DNA of 43,894 nt from a virus. Numbering within the stretch: the first letter of the stretch is position 1; every line of letters begins with the position of its first letter. The translations under genes and the position numbers were made by a program. The stretch is from positions 1 to 43,894 of the IMG/VR virus record IMGVR_UViG_3300006104_001195; one strand, given 5' to 3'. The notes under the pieces are model-generated. The model did no database searches. It was given only the letters and a program-made list of their open reading frames with translations, and was not told the DNA's origin. This document shows, piece by piece, positions 4,082 to 36,802 of this stretch.

Positions 4082-4954
4082 ATGACGAAAGAAACTAAAG
4101 CCCTTACAGTAAAAGAAGACCCCAAGGAACTTATGACGCTTTCAGGCACAGGAATTGATTTTGAAGCTGATGCAGAAGAGTTCGGTGCGAACTATTCTCA
4201 GGAGCAGATGACCACCCCATTCCTGAACATTCTTCAGGCACTTAGCCCTCAGGTTACCCGTGGAAAAGCGGAGTTTATTAAAGAGGCCTCTGCTGGAATG
4301 TTCTACAATTCTGTTACCAAGGAATTGTATGACGGTGAAAAGGGCCTTGACATTATCTTGAGCACATTCAAAGAGTCTTACATTGAATGGGTTCCCCGGA
4401 ACAAGGGTGGCGGGTTTGTTGCAGAATACGGTGTTGTTGAAGGGTCTAAAATTAGGGTTGAGATGGACAAGGATTTCAACTCGATTATTAAGGAAGGATC
4501 TCCTTACGGAACACCAGGTAACCTGTTGAGCCTTACGCATACTCGACTGGGCGCGATCGTGTCTCCTGATCTTTCATCATGGACACCTGTTGTACTGTCA
4601 ATGTCTGCGTCAGGAATTAAGGTTAGCCGCAATCTTAACGCAAGACATAAGCTAATGGAGTGGATTAATCCTTTAACGGGTCAACCGGGTATGCCGGGAA
4701 AGTGCCCTATGCCGCTGATCTTGTGGCATGTGAATGCGATTACACGATCGAACGATAGTGGATCGTGGTTCACGTGGAACTTCGAGAAGAAGGCGTTCTT
4801 GTATGAACTGGATCAAGCTAAGTTTTTGAACCTATACCGTTCCATCCGTGATTTCTCGACCTCTTCCCGAGGGAAACATGTGATGGATGAGGCTGTGAAG
4901 AACGCGGTCAAGGTTGATGACAGTAAGGACCTTAACGACAGTATTCCTTTCTGA
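4082..4954 (+). CDS. Putative single-stranded DNA-binding protein, 290 aa
   Basis: The last residues are DDSKDLNDSIPF: an acidic tail ending in Asp-Ser-Ile-Pro-Phe, very like the acidic tip of bacterial SSB (DDDIPF) through which SSB recruits partner proteins. The body contains many aromatic and basic residues and Gly-rich turns (NKGGGF). Position between accessory proteins and the primase fits a replication SSB. The body does not read as a classical OB-fold SSB by eye, so the call rests on the tail and on context; a recombination mediator with an SSB-like tail is the alternative. Start ATG 4082 follows TAGGAG. Confidence 0.55.
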   Translation: MTKETKALTVKEDPKELMTLSGTGIDFEADAEEFGANYSQEQMTTPFLNILQALSPQVTRGKAEFIKEASAGMFYNSVTKELYDGEKGLDIILSTFKESYIEWVPRNKGGGFVAEYGVVEGSKIRVEMDKDFNSIIKEGSPYGTPGNLLSLTHTRLGAIVSPDLSSWTPVVLSMSASGIKVSRNLNARHKLMEWINPLTGQPGMPGKCPMPLILWHVNAITRSNDSGSWFTWNFEKKAFLYELDQAKFLNLYRSIRDFSTSSRGKHVMDEAVKNAVKVDDSKDLNDSIPF

Positions 4955-8896: not shown

Positions 8897-9490
8897 ATGT
8901 CATCGCTACTCTCGGTACTTGTCACGAAGGACCCAACAACTTCCGCTGTTAATCTGTTCAAAACCGACAGTAAGTCGTTGAAGAAAGACCTTGTATCGTG
9001 CGATAAAGGCTGCACAGCGTTTATTGAAACAATTGCTGATCTTGATCAAGCGCACTTCATAACGATGTATGAAATGCAGGACCTTGTCACGAAGATCTCG
9101 GGTATGGAATTCAAGTATCCTCCGCGAGACAGACTAGTCGCCGCCAAAGCACTTGCCAAAGCCCTTTCTGATAAGCAAAAAGAACTGCCCGGTGTTCCTG
9201 AGAAAAAAGATGAAGAAGAACTCCATGCCCGTGTCTGTCTTCCCTCGAGTGAGATTATTCCTTCAAGGAAAGGCACTAAACTTGCCCTTTTTGTTGAACT
9301 TCTCATCAAAGGATCAACTGTTTCCGAGATGGTCAAGGCGTCAGGACAGGCAGTTGGAGGAGTTCTTTCTTCCATTAACTACGACCTTCACCGTAGGAAG
9401 GGCGTTGGCTACCGTATCACCAAGAAAAATGGTGAAGATTTCTATAAAATTGTCCTCCCTGTAGGGTTCAAGGGGCAGTTGATTGTGTAG
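8897..9490 (+). CDS. DUF3489-like protein with C-terminal helix-turn-helix, 197 aa
   Basis: ATG 8897 is chosen because ACAGGAG lies just upstream; an in-frame start at 8777 would overlap the preceding gene. Residues about 125-185 read KLALFVELLIKGSTVSEMVK followed by a second helix and a basic strand pair, like the winged-helix repeats of DUF3489 proteins, which are often DNA-binding. The N-terminal 100 residues are helical and charged. The stop codon lies within a hairpin (9485-9514), and the structured element at 9521-9721 begins shortly after. Possible regulator of the neighbouring genes. Confidence 0.6.
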   Translation: MSSLLSVLVTKDPTTSAVNLFKTDSKSLKKDLVSCDKGCTAFIETIADLDQAHFITMYEMQDLVTKISGMEFKYPPRDRLVAAKALAKALSDKQKELPGVPEKKDEEELHARVCLPSSEIIPSRKGTKLALFVELLIKGSTVSEMVKASGQAVGGVLSSINYDLHRRKGVGYRITKKNGEDFYKIVLPVGFKGQLIV

Positions 9491-9514
9491 GTTCTTCGGG
9501 AAAAGAATCTACAT
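9485..9514 (+). terminator. Hairpin over the stop codon of the preceding gene
   Basis: GTAGGTTCTT (9487-9496) pairs with AAGAATCTAC (9503-9512) around a 6-base loop; T-A and G-U pairs extend it to 12 bp. It has two G-U wobble pairs if transcribed rightward, which would be C-A mismatches leftward, so a rightward RNA is favoured. There is no T-run after it, so it may be a transcript-end stabiliser or part of the adjacent structured RNA rather than an intrinsic terminator. Confidence 0.5.
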
Positions 9515-9520
9515 TGTGAA

Positions 9521-9721
9521 TGCAAGTAAGGTCGGTCGACCGTCTGGAGATTGATCGCGAGAGGAAACGGATGGCAGTGGGTTCTGTACATCGAAGTCGG
9601 GGAGAGGCTGTTGCGGGGCCATACTTATGTATGTGATTCAATGTAAGTCCTCTCATAACTTTGGAAACCCGTCCGGTAGGCTCTGGAGTGTCCTCCGCTC
9701 CAAACCTACACCTTACTTGCA
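9521..9721 (+). ncRNA. Candidate structured RNA or leader element upstream of queC
   Basis: TGCAAGTAAGGT (9521-9532) and ACCTTACTTGCA (9710-9721) form a perfect 12-bp closing helix around 177 bases. Nested inside are further pairings read by eye: CGGA (9568-9571) with TCCG (9672-9675), GGGTT (9579-9583) with AACCC (9666-9670), GAGAGG (9602-9607) with CCTCTC (9649-9654), CATAC-TTAT-GTATG (9620-9633), and GTAGG (9676-9680) with CCTAC (9705-9709) enclosing TGGAG (9684-9688) with CTCCA (9698-9702). A 10-bp palindrome CGGTCGACCG (9533-9542) abuts the closing helix. The whole fits in the 300-base gap before queC and resembles a multi-branched RNA. It is not the short preQ1 class I/II riboswitch fold and I recognise no known family. 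Confidence 0.5.
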
Positions 9722-9742
9722 CTTGGTTTTGCTTGAGTATGA

Positions 9743-9762
9743 TCTAAGATGTTCCATCTAGA
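9743..9762 (+). promoter_or_regulatory. Hairpin between the structured element and queC
   Basis: TCTA-A-GATG (9743-9751) pairs with CATCTAGA (9755-9762) with one bulged A and a TTC loop. Flanking TTGGT (9723-9727) could pair with ACCAA (9775-9779), placing this hairpin at the tip of a longer arm that ends beside the queC ribosome-binding site (AAGGAAA). It may be the expression platform of the upstream element; speculative. Confidence 0.35.
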
Positions 9763-9790
9763 GTAGCCACCCTCACCAAAAGGAAATCAC

Positions 9791-10606
9791 ATGAAAAATA
9801 AGGCTCTTGTTGTACTGTCCGGCGGGCAGGATTCTGTCACGTGTTTGCACTGGGCGAAAAAGGAGTATTCTGAGGTCCATGCCATAACTTTCGACTACAA
9901 TCAACGTCATCGTTTGGAAATCGAGTCTGCTATTAAAACGGCGGAATTGGCAGGTGTGGAATCTCACGAAGTTGTTGTTCTTGGACCTGTACTTCAAGGC
10001 AAGTCACCTTTAACCAATCCTGACGAATCCTTGGAAAAGTATAAATCTTTTGAGCAAATGGATACCACTATTGGCAACCGAAGGGAGCTTACATTCGTTC
10101 CTATGCGTAACGCCATGTTCCTTACGATAGCGGCAAACAGAGCGGAGATTCTTGGGGGAGCGGACATCATAACAGGCGTCTGCCAAATGGACAACGCGAA
10201 TTATGACGACTGTAGAGAAACCTTCATCAAAGCCACAGAAGATTACATTAACAAGGCATTAGGTCATGATCATAGAGGAACAACTCCGGTACAAATTGTT
10301 ACGCCTCTTCTGTTCTTGAGCAAGTCTGAAACCGTTAAGCTCGCATTGGACCTTCCTGGATGCTACGAGGCCTTGGCGTACAGCCACACGTCTTACGACG
10401 GCCGTTATCCTCCGACCGACAATAATCACTCCAATGTGCTACGTGCACAAGGCTTTCTTGAGGCAGGATACCCCGATCCCCTGGTTGTCAGAGCCTGGTT
10501 CGAAGGACTCATGGACTTGCCTCTAACAGAGAACTACGACAAGCTCCGTAATTCGGGAGATCGTTATGCTTCACTTGAAGCTGCTCTTTCCGCCGCCCGA
10601 GCCTAA
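9791..10606 (+). CDS. queC: QueC-like 7-cyano-7-deazaguanine (preQ0) synthase, 271 aa
   Basis: QueC uses ATP and ammonia to convert 7-carboxy-7-deazaguanine to preQ0, passing through an amide (ADG). The PP-loop ATP site SGGQDS is at residues 10-15 and is followed by the usual FDYNQRH stretch, a VPMRNAMFLTIAANRAE segment, and GADIITGVCQMDNANYDDC. In cellular QueC four cysteines near the C-terminus bind zinc (SCY ... CGxCxxC). Here the matching segment reads TSYDGRYPPTDNNHSNVLR and all four cysteines are absent, an odd feature. Start ATG 9791 follows AAGGAAA. It opens the que cluster. Alternative: an enzyme that stops at the amide. Confidence 0.88.
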   Translation: MKNKALVVLSGGQDSVTCLHWAKKEYSEVHAITFDYNQRHRLEIESAIKTAELAGVESHEVVVLGPVLQGKSPLTNPDESLEKYKSFEQMDTTIGNRRELTFVPMRNAMFLTIAANRAEILGGADIITGVCQMDNANYDDCRETFIKATEDYINKALGHDHRGTTPVQIVTPLLFLSKSETVKLALDLPGCYEALAYSHTSYDGRYPPTDNNHSNVLRAQGFLEAGYPDPLVVRAWFEGLMDLPLTENYDKLRNSGDRYASLEAALSAARA

Positions 10607-10617
10607 GGAACGATTGA

Positions 10618-11550
10618 ATGTCAGAACAGTATTTTGTTTCAATGGCGGAGTTTGAGCAGAGAGCCGAACTCATCGCTTTAGAGATACGTCGTAGGATGCC
10701 TGTTGATCCCGTCTATGTATACGGTGTTCCTCGAGGAGGAATCACCGCCGCCCTTGCAGTGAAAGCATCTTTCGAGAACTCCCACTGCATGGTTCTTGTC
10801 AGCAAACCTGAAGATGCCGATATCATTGTTGATGACATCTACGATTCAGGTAGTGTTCATGACAGATTCAGGGAGAAGTTTCCATCCACACCGTTCCTTG
10901 TGCTATTCGACAAGAGGGAACCCGCCTATAGGAATAAATGGATTGTTATGCCTTTTGAGGTAGGGTTGGACGGCAAGGATGAATCCTCAACAGATATTGT
11001 CACACGCCTGCTGGAGTACATTGGAGAAGATCCTAAAAGGGAAGGTCTGTTGGAGACACCGAAGAGGGTGTTGAAGGCGTGGAAAGAATGGTCCAGAGGA
11101 TACAACGAGGATCCTGTGTCGATACTGAAGACCTTCGAGGATGGTGCAGAACGAGCAAATGAGCTTGTTATCGTCCATAACATACCAGTTTCTTCCAAAT
11201 GTGAGCACCACTTAGCGGACATATCGGGCGTGGCACATGTGGGATACATCCCGGATGGGAAGATTGTAGGTCTATCAAAACTGGCTCGACTTGTGGACGT
11301 GTTCGCACGACGTTTACAGGTACAAGAACGAATGACAGCTAACATCGCCGATACCTTAAACGATGTTCTGAAGCCTAAGGGTGTAGGTGTTCTTATTCGA
11401 GCCTCACATGGGTGCATGAGTTCTAGGGGCGTGAAGATCCATGGATCTGTTACGACAACATCTGCTATGCGAGGTGTTTTAATGGAGGAGATCTCTTGTC
11501 GTGCAGAATTCTTGAATCTTTGTCATATGGCAGAAAAGGATGGTAAATAG
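10618..11550 (+). CDS. folE: Phosphoribosyltransferase-GTP cyclohydrolase I fusion, 310 aa
   Basis: Residues about 125-310 are GTP cyclohydrolase I, first step of the deazaguanine pathway (GTP to dihydroneopterin triphosphate). Zinc ligands C195 and H198 (SSKCEHHLADISG) and C266 (RASHGCMSSRGVKIHG) are intact, as is the LSKLARLVDVFARRLQVQER signature. Residues about 1-115 look like a type I phosphoribosyltransferase: the PRPP loop IIVDDIYDSG (69-78) and a VYGVPRGGITAALAV substrate loop. The fused domain may salvage or activate a purine or deazapurine base; unproven. It starts 11 bases after queC (AAGGAACG) and its TAG overlaps the queD GTG by one base. Confidence 0.88.
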   Translation: MSEQYFVSMAEFEQRAELIALEIRRRMPVDPVYVYGVPRGGITAALAVKASFENSHCMVLVSKPEDADIIVDDIYDSGSVHDRFREKFPSTPFLVLFDKREPAYRNKWIVMPFEVGLDGKDESSTDIVTRLLEYIGEDPKREGLLETPKRVLKAWKEWSRGYNEDPVSILKTFEDGAERANELVIVHNIPVSSKCEHHLADISGVAHVGYIPDGKIVGLSKLARLVDVFARRLQVQERMTANIADTLNDVLKPKGVGVLIRASHGCMSSRGVKIHGSVTTTSAMRGVLMEEISCRAEFLNLCHMAEKDGK

Positions 11551-13085: not shown

Positions 13086-13104
13086 TGCTCAACGAAGAAA
13101 CGCT

Positions 13105-13166
13105 ATGAATTCTTGTTCTAAGAAAAACTCCTTCTATGAATTCTTGTTCTAAGAAAAACTCCTTCT
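13105..13166 (+). repeat. 31-bp tandem duplication
   Basis: A 31-base unit beginning ATGAATTCTTGTTC occurs at 13105-13135 and is repeated without change at 13136-13166. Because 31 is not a multiple of three, the first copy's ATG reads into a stop after 15 codons, whereas the second ATG opens the GIY-YIG-like frame. The perfect identity suggests a recent slippage event. Confidence 0.9.
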
Positions 13167-13389
13167 ATGTGTACTTGCTGTTTGATTACTTTGGTGATCA
13201 GCTATATGTAGGAAAAGGAAAGGATCTGTAGAGTCCCGCGATAGAATGAGTGACGCTAGGTACAAACGTATTGAGTTCGAGAAAGCAGCAGGATTGTGGG
13301 AACAGAAACTTCTCTTACGAAAAGAAGCACTGGAAGATTCTAAGAAACAACAGGAAGATTCTAAGAAACAACAGGAAACAGAGACCTAG
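13136..13389 (+). pseudogene. Decayed GIY-YIG-type nuclease
   Basis: From ATG 13136 the frame reads FYVYLLFDYFGDQLYVGKGK, the start of a GIY-YIG nuclease domain (catalytic YVY...YVGKGKG), but it hits TAG at 13229-13231. One base back in frame (from about 13219) an open frame continues through GSVESRDRMSDARYKRIEFE and a basic helical tail to TAG 13387-13389. A 1-base indel therefore splits the gene. The tail contains a 21-bp tandem repeat encoding EDSKKQQ twice (13333-13374). It lies in a 313-base gap before dpdA. Likely a dead homing-type nuclease; no standard slippery heptamer was seen in frame, so programmed frameshifting is unlikely. Confidence 0.65.
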
Positions 13390-13398
13390 GGTATAAAA

Positions 13399-14394
13399 AT
13401 GGTTTGGATATACGAGTCAGGCACTCCCCGTGTAGATGAATGCCAGGTTACAGAGAACAGTTTATGTGATCACAGACTGTTCAGTGTGCATGGAAGTTAC
13501 CAGAGATCAGTCCAGCAGTGGTTAGAGCATCCGAGGAATGGAGTACTGAATAATCTAGCTAAATCAAGACCTTCACACATACTTTTGGACAGCGGCGGCT
13601 TCAGCGCCTGGCGCTCCGGACATCCAACAACCGTGGAAGCTGTCATACAAGCGTACAAGAAATTTCTTGATGTGGCAAAGCCTTATTTCAAGGAGATCTG
13701 GATGATCTCTTTAGACCAAATCCCCGGAAAATTCGGAGTAGATCCTACTCCTGAAGAAATTAAGTCCGCTATCGTCGAATCCGATAAAAACTACAAGATA
13801 CTTACTGACATTTTCGGAGACCGTATCCTTCCTATTTATCACCAAGGAGAAGACATTGAACGTGCCTTGGAAGTTGAAGAGCAGACCGCAGGGAAGTCCA
13901 ACTACATCTGCGTCTCACCGAGAAATGATCTTCCAGAAGCGAAGCGTGTTGTATGGTCGCAGCAAGTTCATGCTAAGCTGAAACCAACAACCCGAACACA
14001 CGGACTTGCAACAACAGGGAATAAGATGGTTTCCCTTGTACCCTGGTATTCGGTAGATAGCGCGACGTGGATCTTAGTTGGGGCGATGGGTTCAATTATA
14101 CATTTCTGGGACAGCGGAATCAAACAAGGATACTCCACCATTGCAATAACGAATGATGCAGGAAGAGACCGCTACCAAAACCAGCATTTTGACACATACG
14201 CCAAGCCTTTTCAAGATGCTATAGTTGAAAGAATTGAATCCCTTGGTTTCACATTGGAAGAAGTTAAAACGAATGTCAGGCCGAGGTCACTTTATAACAT
14301 GTACAACTTGGAGCTTTGGATGAAACAGATACGTGAAATGAAGTTGTCAAGAACAAACAAAGTAAGCATACAAGAAACCTTATTTGGAGTGTGA
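13399..14394 (+). CDS. dpdA: DpdA-like DNA 7-deazaguanine transglycosylase, 331 aa
   Basis: The protein has the tRNA-guanine transglycosylase fold signature: ILLDSGGFSAW at 61-71 (D64 matches the TGT DSGGF motif), a SLDQIPG segment (104-110), RILPIYHQGED (142-152), and HGLATTG (201-207) followed by PWYSVDSATW, where D220 may be the nucleophile. This pattern is typical of DpdA, which swaps guanine in DNA for a 7-deazaguanine base, rather than of tRNA enzymes, and the zinc-binding CxCxxC tail of bacterial TGT is absent. Around it are queC, folE, queD, queF and queE, so its substrate is probably preQ0 or preQ1. ATG 13399 is preceded by CTAGGG. Confidence 0.85.
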   Translation: MVWIYESGTPRVDECQVTENSLCDHRLFSVHGSYQRSVQQWLEHPRNGVLNNLAKSRPSHILLDSGGFSAWRSGHPTTVEAVIQAYKKFLDVAKPYFKEIWMISLDQIPGKFGVDPTPEEIKSAIVESDKNYKILTDIFGDRILPIYHQGEDIERALEVEEQTAGKSNYICVSPRNDLPEAKRVVWSQQVHAKLKPTTRTHGLATTGNKMVSLVPWYSVDSATWILVGAMGSIIHFWDSGIKQGYSTIAITNDAGRDRYQNQHFDTYAKPFQDAIVERIESLGFTLEEVKTNVRPRSLYNMYNLELWMKQIREMKLSRTNKVSIQETLFGV

Positions 14395-14624: not shown

Positions 14625-15646
14625 TGCAGTTCAACCTTGCCATCGAAAAAGTAAAAAACGCCCTATCTTCAAGGGATTATATAGCGAGCCTCACCCACTA
14701 CCATTTCATCAATGGGCAGGTTTATGCAACAAACGGTGCCATGACGGCAAGCTGCCCGGTAGATGTACAAGGTCAATATGTTATCCCCGCAGAAGAACTT
14801 GATAAGGCCCTGAATATCTTCGGGAATGACGCGACCTTCCTCTGGCAAGAAGACACACTGACTATCAAGAAAGCACGCAGACGAATCACGATCCGACTGC
14901 TGAAACCTGAAACAGTACCTTTGATCGAACCTGTACCAGAAAAAGATACGTGGAGGGTTCCCTCGGAGTTCATTTCACAGATCAAGAAAATAAGGCCCTT
15001 TATATCAGACGATGCCTCTAAGCCGTGGGCTCTGACAGCATGGCTGCATAAAGTTGAAGGATCGGATTTGGTGTGGACAGCTACCAACAACATCTCCGTT
15101 GTTGAAGTTGACGCTGTTCCTTCCTATCCAAAAACAGCACACATACCTGAAACAGATTGCCAGATACCTAACTTCGCACTAGACTTTGTCATACAAAGAG
15201 GAACAGGACTGAAAAGTATAGGCTCCACTCCGAATAAAGCGAGCTTCTTCTTTGAAGACGGATCGCAAATGACCACACAATTGTTTTCACAGAAAATGCC
15301 AGACCAGGTATCGAACATAGTGCAGAACTGTTACGATGAAATAGAAGACGCTTTCTTCTTGAACGACGACTGGAGGTCTGCTTATTCATCTATCGTGCAG
15401 CTATCTCCAGAGGAGATTTCTTTATCTGCTACAACCATGACAGCAGGGCGCAGACAAGCGGAAATGGTCGTGGAGGTATGCTCACCGGTACCGAGGGATG
15501 AAACCAAGAAAGCGTCTTTCTGGAACCCGAAGTTTCTGACACCTATTGTTGATGCTGTCACGCACATTGATTTTGGGGCCTACCCTTCTCCCTCAAGGTT
15601 TAAAGGGGATGGCATTCGTGGTTTAACAGTGGGAAAACTTGTATGA
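14624..15646 (+). CDS. DnaN-like sliding clamp, 340 aa
   Basis: Read as a beta-clamp-like protein: YHFINGQVYATNGAMTASCP resembles the clamp pattern 'strand, DG, ATD' and is followed by GQYVIPAEELDKAL. A second domain begins with WRVPSEFISQI, and the end (GIRGLTVGKLV) resembles the C-terminal clamp strand. The length (340 aa) is near the 366 aa of bacterial clamps. A clamp would tether the phage polymerase at 16762. No clamp loader is visible in the window. Identity is moderate by eye and rests partly on context. Translated by TAATG coupling with the upstream gene. Confidence 0.6.
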   Translation: MQFNLAIEKVKNALSSRDYIASLTHYHFINGQVYATNGAMTASCPVDVQGQYVIPAEELDKALNIFGNDATFLWQEDTLTIKKARRRITIRLLKPETVPLIEPVPEKDTWRVPSEFISQIKKIRPFISDDASKPWALTAWLHKVEGSDLVWTATNNISVVEVDAVPSYPKTAHIPETDCQIPNFALDFVIQRGTGLKSIGSTPNKASFFFEDGSQMTTQLFSQKMPDQVSNIVQNCYDEIEDAFFLNDDWRSAYSSIVQLSPEEISLSATTMTAGRRQAEMVVEVCSPVPRDETKKASFWNPKFLTPIVDAVTHIDFGAYPSPSRFKGDGIRGLTVGKLV

Positions 15647-15873: not shown

Positions 15874-16052
15874 CTTCTCCGCTAGATAGACTTCGTAAAC
15901 TGCTAATACAGGAAGGCTGCTGCACTTACTGTCTAAACATGCGTTCTGTCAAAGGAAAGACCCTTGGTAGATTCGAGAAAGAGAACTGCCCCGCTTGCTT
16001 TGGAAGCGGGTTGAACGTAGAAAAAGAATGGGAACAGCTGCATGCATGGTAA
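15870..16052 (+). CDS. Small zinc-finger-like protein, 60 aa
   Basis: Two Cys pairs (GCCTYC and CPACFGSG) separated by about 20 residues form a zinc-ribbon-like knuckle; the second resembles the CxxCxGxG repeat of DnaJ. It starts by ATGA overlap and overlaps the queE start by 11 bases. Possible nucleic-acid or protein-binding adaptor; function unknown. Confidence 0.6.
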   Translation: MTSPLDRLRKLLIQEGCCTYCLNMRSVKGKTLGRFEKENCPACFGSGLNVEKEWEQLHAW

Positions 16053-16752
16053 CAATGAACCGCGTAGTTCCGAATCCTTCAAAGGAACATACCAGGTACA
16101 CGAGGTTTTTCATACGATACAAGGGGAAGGGCCTTTTGCTGGGCTTCCCGCTGTTTTCGTACGATTGACGGGGTGTCACTACAGGTGCCATTTTTGCGAC
16201 ACTGTGTGGGACGACGCAAAAGACCCTCAGCTAACGACTGAAGGACTCGTGAAGTTAATTAAGATCTCCTCTAGCAAGTGTAAGCTAGTAGTAATCACTG
16301 GAGGAGAACCTTGCCGACAGGACCTTGCTCCTATACTTCAAGAACTTCTCTCTGACGGATACAAAGTACAGGTCGAGACGGCAGGGACCTTCTGGCAGGA
16401 CTGCCTTCAGTGGGACGGTGTAACTATTGTGTGCTCCCCTAAAACTTCTAAGGTTCACAGAGAAATACTGGACTGTTGCAATCACTGGAAGTACGTTGTT
16501 CGAGCAGGGGACGCCTCAGAAGAAGACGGGCTACCTGTAGAAGGAACACAGAAAGATCCTAACGGTGGACCTCACAGGGGAAGTGCAATGGCAAGACCTC
16601 CGAAGACACGAAAAGCGAACGTGTACCTTCAGCCTTGCGATGAGTATGACGAGTCTAGAAATAAGGCTAACATGAAGCACATGGTAGACATTTCCATGAA
16701 GTATGGGTACAGGGCTGGGTTACAGCTGCACAAATACTTTAATGTGCCGTGA
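16042..16752 (+). CDS. queE: QueE-like 7-carboxy-7-deazaguanine synthase (radical SAM), 236 aa
   Basis: QueE rearranges 6-carboxytetrahydropterin to 7-carboxy-7-deazaguanine. The iron-sulphur motif CxxxCxxC is C45, C49, C52 in TGCHYRCHFCDT, preceded by the family signature FHTIQGEGPFAGLPAVFVRL. ITGGEPCRQDL is the radical-SAM GGE motif and binds S-adenosylmethionine. A later QPCDEYDESRNKANM segment is also typical. It stands apart from the other que genes, 3.2 kb after queF and directly before the DNA polymerase, starting inside the preceding gene. Confidence 0.92.
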   Translation: MHGNNEPRSSESFKGTYQVHEVFHTIQGEGPFAGLPAVFVRLTGCHYRCHFCDTVWDDAKDPQLTTEGLVKLIKISSSKCKLVVITGGEPCRQDLAPILQELLSDGYKVQVETAGTFWQDCLQWDGVTIVCSPKTSKVHREILDCCNHWKYVVRAGDASEEDGLPVEGTQKDPNGGPHRGSAMARPPKTRKANVYLQPCDEYDESRNKANMKHMVDISMKYGYRAGLQLHKYFNVP

Positions 16753-36347: not shown

Positions 36348-36361
36348 TTTTCATCCTAGAG

Positions 36362-36389
36362 TTGGTTCGATCTTAAGGGGCACTATACT
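36362..36389 (+). promoter_or_regulatory. Weak rightward promoter candidate
   Basis: TTGGTT (36362-36367) and TATACT (36384-36389) lie 16 bases apart, in front of a small rightward unit within the leftward block. The -10 is good and the -35 poor. Confidence 0.4.
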
Positions 36390-36401
36390 GCATAAAGCTG
36401 A

Positions 36402-36425
36402 ACTTTATCACAGGAGCATCTCATG
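36402..36425 (+). promoter_or_regulatory. Recurrent leader/ribosome-binding site, copy 3
   Basis: TATCACAGGAGCATCTCATG at 36406-36425 matches the leaders before 8587 and 19124. It is the third copy and the only one in the leftward gene block, but it is oriented rightward and precedes a 22-codon frame. Confidence 0.6.
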
Positions 36426-36491
36426 AGAGTATTCATACAAGGTTTCTTCGGAGGGTATATTGGCTATCTATTAGCAGAGTGGCTACACTAG
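36423..36491 (+). CDS. 22-aa hydrophobic peptide
   Basis: ATG 36423 with an ideal AGGAG site (recurrent leader copy 3) opens a 22-codon frame ending TAG 36489-36491. The peptide starts basic (MRVF), continues with a Gly- and aromatic-rich hydrophobic core (FFGGYIGYLLAEW) and ends in Leu-His, so it could insert in a membrane or serve as a leader peptide. Opposite to all neighbouring genes. The hairpin at 36518-36561 follows. Confidence 0.5.
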   Translation: MRVFIQGFFGGYIGYLLAEWLH

Positions 36492-36517
36492 CACGGTACT
36501 AAGCATCCCTTCATCTA

Positions 36518-36561
36518 AGTACTCCAGCACAGTAATCATTTTCACTGAACGCTGGAGTACT
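36518..36561 (+). promoter_or_regulatory. Hairpin that would hide a ribosome-binding site, or a terminator
   Basis: AGTACTCCAGC (36518-36528) is perfectly complementary to GCTGGAGTACT (36551-36561); CAGT (36530-36533) and ACTG (36544-36547) extend the stem across a small internal loop. The right arm contains GGAG, the ribosome-binding site of the TTG start at 36563, paired with CTCC in the left arm. T-rich sequence follows (GTTTCTTTT), so it might instead end the short rightward transcript. Confidence 0.6.
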
Positions 36562-36562
36562 G

Positions 36563-36802
36563 TTGGTGTTTCTTTTAACGCATGACCCATTAACGACTAT
36601 TCTTTATGGGATAGGCATTGCTTTTGTGTACGGCGTCTTCATGGGACTTACGAGGCAGGTGAGCCCTCGTGACATACCTTCACCTAGAACTGTTATTGTA
36701 GAGAAGCCCCGCGTAGGGGGCGGCGGAGGTGAGAGCATTCTGAAACTGCGGGACTTCTCCCGTGCTCCGAAATCCCTTGAGGGAATTAGCCGCGACCTTT
36801 GA
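36563..36802 (+). CDS. Possible small membrane protein, 79 aa
   Basis: TTG 36563 with GGAG 5 bases upstream, within the hairpin. Residues about 11-28 (TILYGIGIAFVYGVFMGL) form a membrane helix, followed by a Pro/Gly linker. The last 40 codons overlap the end of the oppositely oriented 959-aa gene, and that part looks like antisense sequence, so the natural end is uncertain. Doubtful, but the helix and the upstream control structure justify listing it. Confidence 0.3.
   Translation: MVFLLTHDPLTTILYGIGIAFVYGVFMGLTRQVSPRDIPSPRTVIVEKPRVGGGGGESILKLRDFSRAPKSLEGISRDL

Follow-up and report, generated by a model that had tools for sequence, protein, structure and literature searches.

The noncoding gap before queC in a distant Nanhaivirus-like phage, and a putative preQ1-like pseudoknot at the same place in related phages

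What does a phage keep in 300 noncoding nucleotides directly ahead of a gene for deazaguanine synthesis? A reading of the sequence alone had proposed a large structured element there, closed by a long-range helix, that would act either as a metabolite-sensing leader of the que operon or as a free-standing phage RNA. We compared this gap with shuffled sequence, with RNA family models and with the corresponding gaps of related phages. The observations of that reading are partly confirmed; the idea of a sensing leader fits the related phages, with a different and much smaller putative RNA.

Gene context of the gap

Gene order and protein similarity place the window (the whole stretch of viral DNA analyzed here, 43,894 nt) in a distant Nanhaivirus-like phage, which shares with Nanhaivirus-like phages the order primase, helicase, DUF3489-like gene, gap and queC (Table 1). 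In the Dinoroseobacter phages R5C and R26L and the Pseudanabaena phage Pan1, folE, queF and dpdA come after queC. In alignments the protein encoded upstream of the gap is 26-28% identical to its syntenic counterpart in these three phages, and tblastn matches it to phage proteins labelled DUF3489. No Pfam or NCBIfam model matched the window protein, and the syntenic protein of R26L matched Pfam DUF3489 weakly, below the cut-off.

Downstream, queC is followed by folE, queD and queF, with dpdA and queE further on. FolE, QueD, QueC, QueF and QueE together with a DpdA-like transferase form a set known to put 7-deazaguanines into phage DNA (PMC6884629). The window QueF scores above the cut-off for the QueF-II preQ1 synthase type, and the pathway, as read from its genes, yields preQ0 and, via QueF-II, probably preQ1. 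Within the same cluster, folE (10618-11550) codes for an N-terminal extension of about 120 residues, in which a phosphoribosyltransferase-like motif was recognized by eye (VDDIYDSG), and the Pfam match of the protein is limited to the GTP cyclohydrolase part. The 313-nt gap before the dpdA-like gene (13086-13398) contains two copies of a direct repeat, ATGAATTCTTGTTCTAAGAAAAACTCCTTCT.

The queC gap itself (9491-9790) is noncoding on both strands, and the small ORFs within it were rejected as genes because a coding signal is absent. It ranks among the window's three longest gaps; the longest, a noncoding gap of 332 nt (36348-36679), lies between minus-strand genes beside tail genes.

Table 1. 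Features of the window around queC, and pseudoknot sites before queC in related phages (contig:positions)
Feature	Position	Strand	Remark
DUF3489-like (winged-helix-like) small protein gene	8897..9490	+	likely start 8897, stop TAG 9488-9490
12-bp hairpin overlapping the upstream gene's stop codon	9485-9514	+	30 nt; z -5.5
Left arm of 12-bp inverted repeat, TGCAAGTAAGGT	9521-9532	+	
Element interior	9533-9709	+	177 nt, noncoding; shuffle-like folding except hairpin 9675-9709
35-nt hairpin	9675-9709	+	z -3.3
Right arm of 12-bp inverted repeat, ACCTTACTTGCA	9710-9721	+	end overlaps best -35-like hexamer
Highest-scoring promoter-like site within the gap (TTGCAC, 15 nt, TATGAT)	9717-9743	+	candidate que promoter
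queC	9791..10606	+	Pfam QueC 2.4e-48; opens the window's deazaguanine cluster
dpdA-like gene	13399-14394		DpdA-like transferase
queE-like gene	16042-16752		
Pseudoknot	L039:4966-4997		
Pseudoknot	L040:4967-4997		
Pseudoknot	L041:4967-4997 (R26L)		
Pseudoknot	L127:4572-4604		
Pseudoknot	L129:3781-3811		
Pseudoknot	L130:4626-4656		
Pseudoknot	L131:3360-3392		
Pseudoknot	L132:4797-4829		
Pseudoknot	L133:4080-4108		
Pseudoknot	L138:1358-1388	minus	
Pseudoknot	L140:8834-8866		
Pseudoknot	L142:14373-14405		
Pseudoknot	L150:2967-2997		

Repeats and folding of the gap

The perfect 12-bp arms spanning 201 nt, on which the sequence-only reading had built its element, are present exactly as it claimed. 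A stem of at least 12 bp has p = 0.0026 in one random gap of such size; across the window, four such repeats were observed where 0.55 are expected, three of them inside genes. The 12-bp hairpin to the left of the element was also described correctly, and its two G-U positions form regular wobble pairs in a rightward RNA only; a local 12-bp hairpin with G-U pairs arises in 6% of shuffled gaps. An alternative 9-bp helix can be read off the sequence, in which 9485-9493 (GTGTAGGTT) pairs perfectly with 9703-9711 (AACCTACAC). It would exclude the stop-codon hairpin and the 35-nt hairpin as well as the 12-bp helix at its inner end, and may be due to chance.

On either strand the interior of the element folds no better than shuffles (plus z +0.22, minus z -0.56), which leaves the proposed set of nested stems unsupported beyond chance. 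The last 75 nt before queC (9716-9790), where a right-hand hairpin had been proposed, fold worse than shuffles (z +1.08), and thus offer no obvious expression platform. For the whole 306 nt (9485-9790) z is -1.8 on the plus strand and -3.2 on the minus strand, and for the 201-nt element -2.2 and -3.3; because the minus strand folds relatively better, a rightward RNA is not favored. The fold check therefore preserves the 12-bp helix and the hairpins at 9485-9514 and 9675-9709, which together carry the predicted fold of the region, and does not preserve the interior, the right-hand hairpin or the preference for the rightward strand.

The suggestion of a 6S-like RNA-polymerase decoy is one that nothing here supports. 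The element resembles 6S RNA in its size of about 200 nt and its long-range closing helix, but its minimum-energy fold is multibranched rather than a long hairpin with a central bubble, and a 6S match in Rfam is absent.

The repeats could instead act as DNA, either as operator sites (e.g., for the DUF3489-like protein) or as the ends of a small inserted element. Both the 12-bp repeat and the stop-codon hairpin are near-perfect dyads, the neighboring gene belongs to a winged-helix-like family, and the promoter spacers of several related phages also hold short dyads, although of varying sequence. On the other hand, further half-site copies in the window do not exceed chance for either pattern, a target-site duplication is absent around the 12-bp repeat, and genomes and plasmids contain zero copies. 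We consider a role as DNA unlikely, and the reading of the 12-bp ends as those of a mobile element was rejected, there being neither a target duplication nor a second copy.

Relatives of the gap and a pseudoknot before queC

Sequence searches with the window element returned zero matches in phages, plasmids, IMG/VR viral contigs and species genomes. An Rfam scan, which the sequence-only reading had put forward as a check, was run on the window and the gap and returned nothing, even at E 10. Relatives of the locus sought via the upstream gene alone or the DNA polymerase alone were not found, a helicase search returned only distant phages without queC (R5C excepted), and none of the 37 loci from a first QueC search was syntenic. 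We read the gap in 11 syntenic relatives (R5C, Pan1, R26L, L124, L127, L129-L133 and L150). By blast, none of these gaps matched the window element, and every comparison of the arms showed at least three mismatches in 12 positions. They measure 78-137 nt in 10 of the 11 relatives (132-134 nt in R5C, R26L and Pan1, versus 300 nt in the window) and about 360 nt in L130, where 4298-4625, ahead of the pseudoknot described below, contains a small ORF rich in lysine and a noncoding stretch of about 135 nt. This L130 stretch is of ordinary stability (z -1.0). A resemblance between the gap of L130 and the window element, based on the common motif GAAACGGA, was rejected as a chance-level alignment (P 0.21), and an RNase P-like reading of the same motif was dropped, with no RNase P match in Rfam.

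These comparisons bear on whether the element is a lineage-specific structured RNA, i.e., a free noncoding RNA or a long 5' leader, with the 12-bp helix closing it and a role in que regulation or host takeover. The improbable closing helix, the strong hairpins at both ends and the noncoding character of the region argue for such an RNA, as do the structured leader that relatives carry at the same place and the extra noncoding stretch of L130. Against it stand the interior, no stabler than shuffles on either strand, the relatively better folding of the minus strand, the failure to find relatives of the element, and the fact that the L130 stretch has ordinary stability and cannot be aligned with it beyond chance. 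On balance, we regard this explanation as rather doubtful.

In most relatives a promoter of the form TTGnnC-N17-TAAyGT directly follows the upstream gene and precedes one or two leader hairpins, whose stems are kept while their sequences vary; the gaps of R5C, R26L and Pan1 consist of a promoter, two hairpins and a pseudoknot. The pseudoknot corresponds to a module, CCUG-UG-RUGG-N(2-4)-AC-CAGG-(A-rich)-CCAY, that ends at the queC start in 13 distinct leaders and is predicted to form an H-type pseudoknot of about 32 nt (Table 1). When viral contigs were searched with this module, 10 contigs matched, and queC starts immediately downstream in every distinct match. A second, weak match in the L140 contig was set aside as an apparent coding sequence without the motif. 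The module was found in 0 of 198 genomes of the Acidimangrovimonas family, with a model that did match phage records.

Several lines of evidence support the pairing. In the alignment 99% of cells are paired, versus 94.3% in shuffled and at most 48% in slid versions, and covariation lies above that of all 500 shuffles, with only two of the eight pairs varying on both sides, one in each stem (CG/GC in P1, AU/GC in P2). For example, the looser relative L150 has CGUG/CACG in place of CCUG/CAGG, a compensatory change in stem 1, and the R:Y pair of stem 2 alternates between A-U and G-C. In L127, L130 and L140 the AUG lies inside stem 2, with CAGGAG (stem 1, 3' strand) as the likely Shine-Dalgarno (SD) sequence; the other leaders have a GGA-rich ribosome site within the loop between the stems.

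Other elements were noted in the same leaders. A palindrome, GTTTAAAC, occurs upstream of the module in most of them (L039, L040, L041, L129, L131, L132, L140 and L142) and also in L124. It usually forms the tip of a hairpin; since it lacks a flanking stem in L140, it may function as a site in DNA instead of as a loop in RNA. Terminator-like hairpins with T-runs lie between the upstream gene and queC at L124:3784-3868 (GCCATGGTTTTTATTTT) and L133:4003-4079 (GCCGGGCTCTTTTT).

The preQ1 riboswitches of class I fold as small H-type pseudoknots whose third loop is rich in A. Types II and III have an AC before the 3' strand of P1, and the C of this AC pairs with the ligand (PMC11625349, a 2024 review); UU in L1 is a further requirement of types I and III. 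On paper, the relatives' module resembles this class, although it is not counted among its members. Both are H-type pseudoknots (about 32 nt in the relatives) with a short P1 that has a G-C pair inside, an L1 that begins with U, an AC before the P1 3' strand and an A-rich L3, and with a Shine-Dalgarno sequence or start codon within or beside the knot; the AC and the first U of L1 are invariant in all 13 leaders. The module also lies directly upstream of queC, in the pathway to preQ0 and, with QueF, preQ1. A descriptor written from the preQ1-I rules matched 10 of 109 queC upstream regions, all from the Nanhaivirus-like group, versus 0.0005 matches per shuffled region. The module differs from the known class in that P1 is limited to 4 bp, L1 reads UG (UA in one leader) instead of UU, P2 is RUGG:CCAY, and the Shine-Dalgarno sequence lies in the P1 3' strand and L3 rather than in P2. 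Nor is the module recognized by the Rfam model RF00522, which matched nothing in the phage records and one genome over the cut-off in the control set.

In the window, the pseudoknot is not found before queC with the module model or with the descriptor, whose single match there, at 14912, is unrelated. The window element likewise lacks the features of preQ1-I RNAs according to the descriptor, and both Rfam as a whole and RF00522 came back empty. The window might instead replace the small pseudoknot of its relatives with a large leader that senses a deazaguanine or pterin. Such a sensor would lie directly before queC, among genes whose products yield preQ0 and probably preQ1, and the queC of relatives does have a structured, covarying leader. 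However, no Rfam riboswitch matches it, the best promoter-like site lies downstream of the element, the final 75 nt provide no obvious expression platform and a preQ1-I-like layout is absent before queC, so that we judge this explanation very improbable. For the sensing leader proposed from the sequence alone, then, the location holds, as relatives carry a promoter and a covarying leader in this gap. The 201-nt element in that role does not: it has no relatives, an ordinary interior, no strand preference, no Rfam match and a weak promoter candidate at its right edge.

Reading of the gap and implications

We give about an even chance to the region 9485-9790 being a noncoding spacer between the DUF3489-like regulatory gene and the queC-led deazaguanine operon; by sequence comparison, most of it is lineage-specific and absent from relatives. 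Most simply, queC in the window phage retains a short leader, and the element is part of the 3' region of the upstream transcript or neutral spacer. The upstream transcript would then carry the stop-codon hairpin and the inverted-repeat element at its 3' end, where they may protect it or help to terminate it, and a que promoter would lie at the right edge of the element, at about 9717-9743, so that the leader of queC would measure about 40 nt. On this arrangement the 201-nt element would be ahead of the que leader and so would take no part in metabolite sensing.

Consistent with a spacer, relatives with the same gene order have short gaps without a trace of the element in 10 of 11 cases, and the element combines ordinary interior stability with no relatives, no Rfam match and no coding potential. 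Against it, the 12-bp repeat is improbable for one gap and the stop-codon hairpin is strong, and together these suggest that some constraint is possible. Furthermore, the promoter candidate has the best score in the gap, in a scan with weights derived from the relatives' promoters, but is not significant (P 0.33). Three hundred noncoding bases are also much for a compact phage genome, although two other gaps are equally long.

The window element by itself is probably unremarkable, and the chance that it is itself a new large sensor is very slim indeed. What matters is the locus in the relatives, to which the interpretation as a sensing leader, partly supported, applies instead of to the window element: in at least 13 genomes or contigs of phages, a conserved, covarying pseudoknot precedes queC. 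By analogy with the known class, it is plausible, if somewhat short of an even chance, that Nanhaivirus-like phages carry a new class-I preQ1 variant, a queC leader with a pseudoknot of about 32 nt that senses the deazaguanine of their own DNA modification, and that in the window phage it has been lost, its place now taken by a larger element unrelated to it. No mention of a riboswitch was found in the published papers on R5C, Pan1 and phage deazaguanines that we consulted. If the module binds preQ0 or preQ1, these phages would regulate the synthesis of their own modified base by a metabolite-sensing RNA, and the preQ1-I family would gain a branch beyond the recognition of Rfam.
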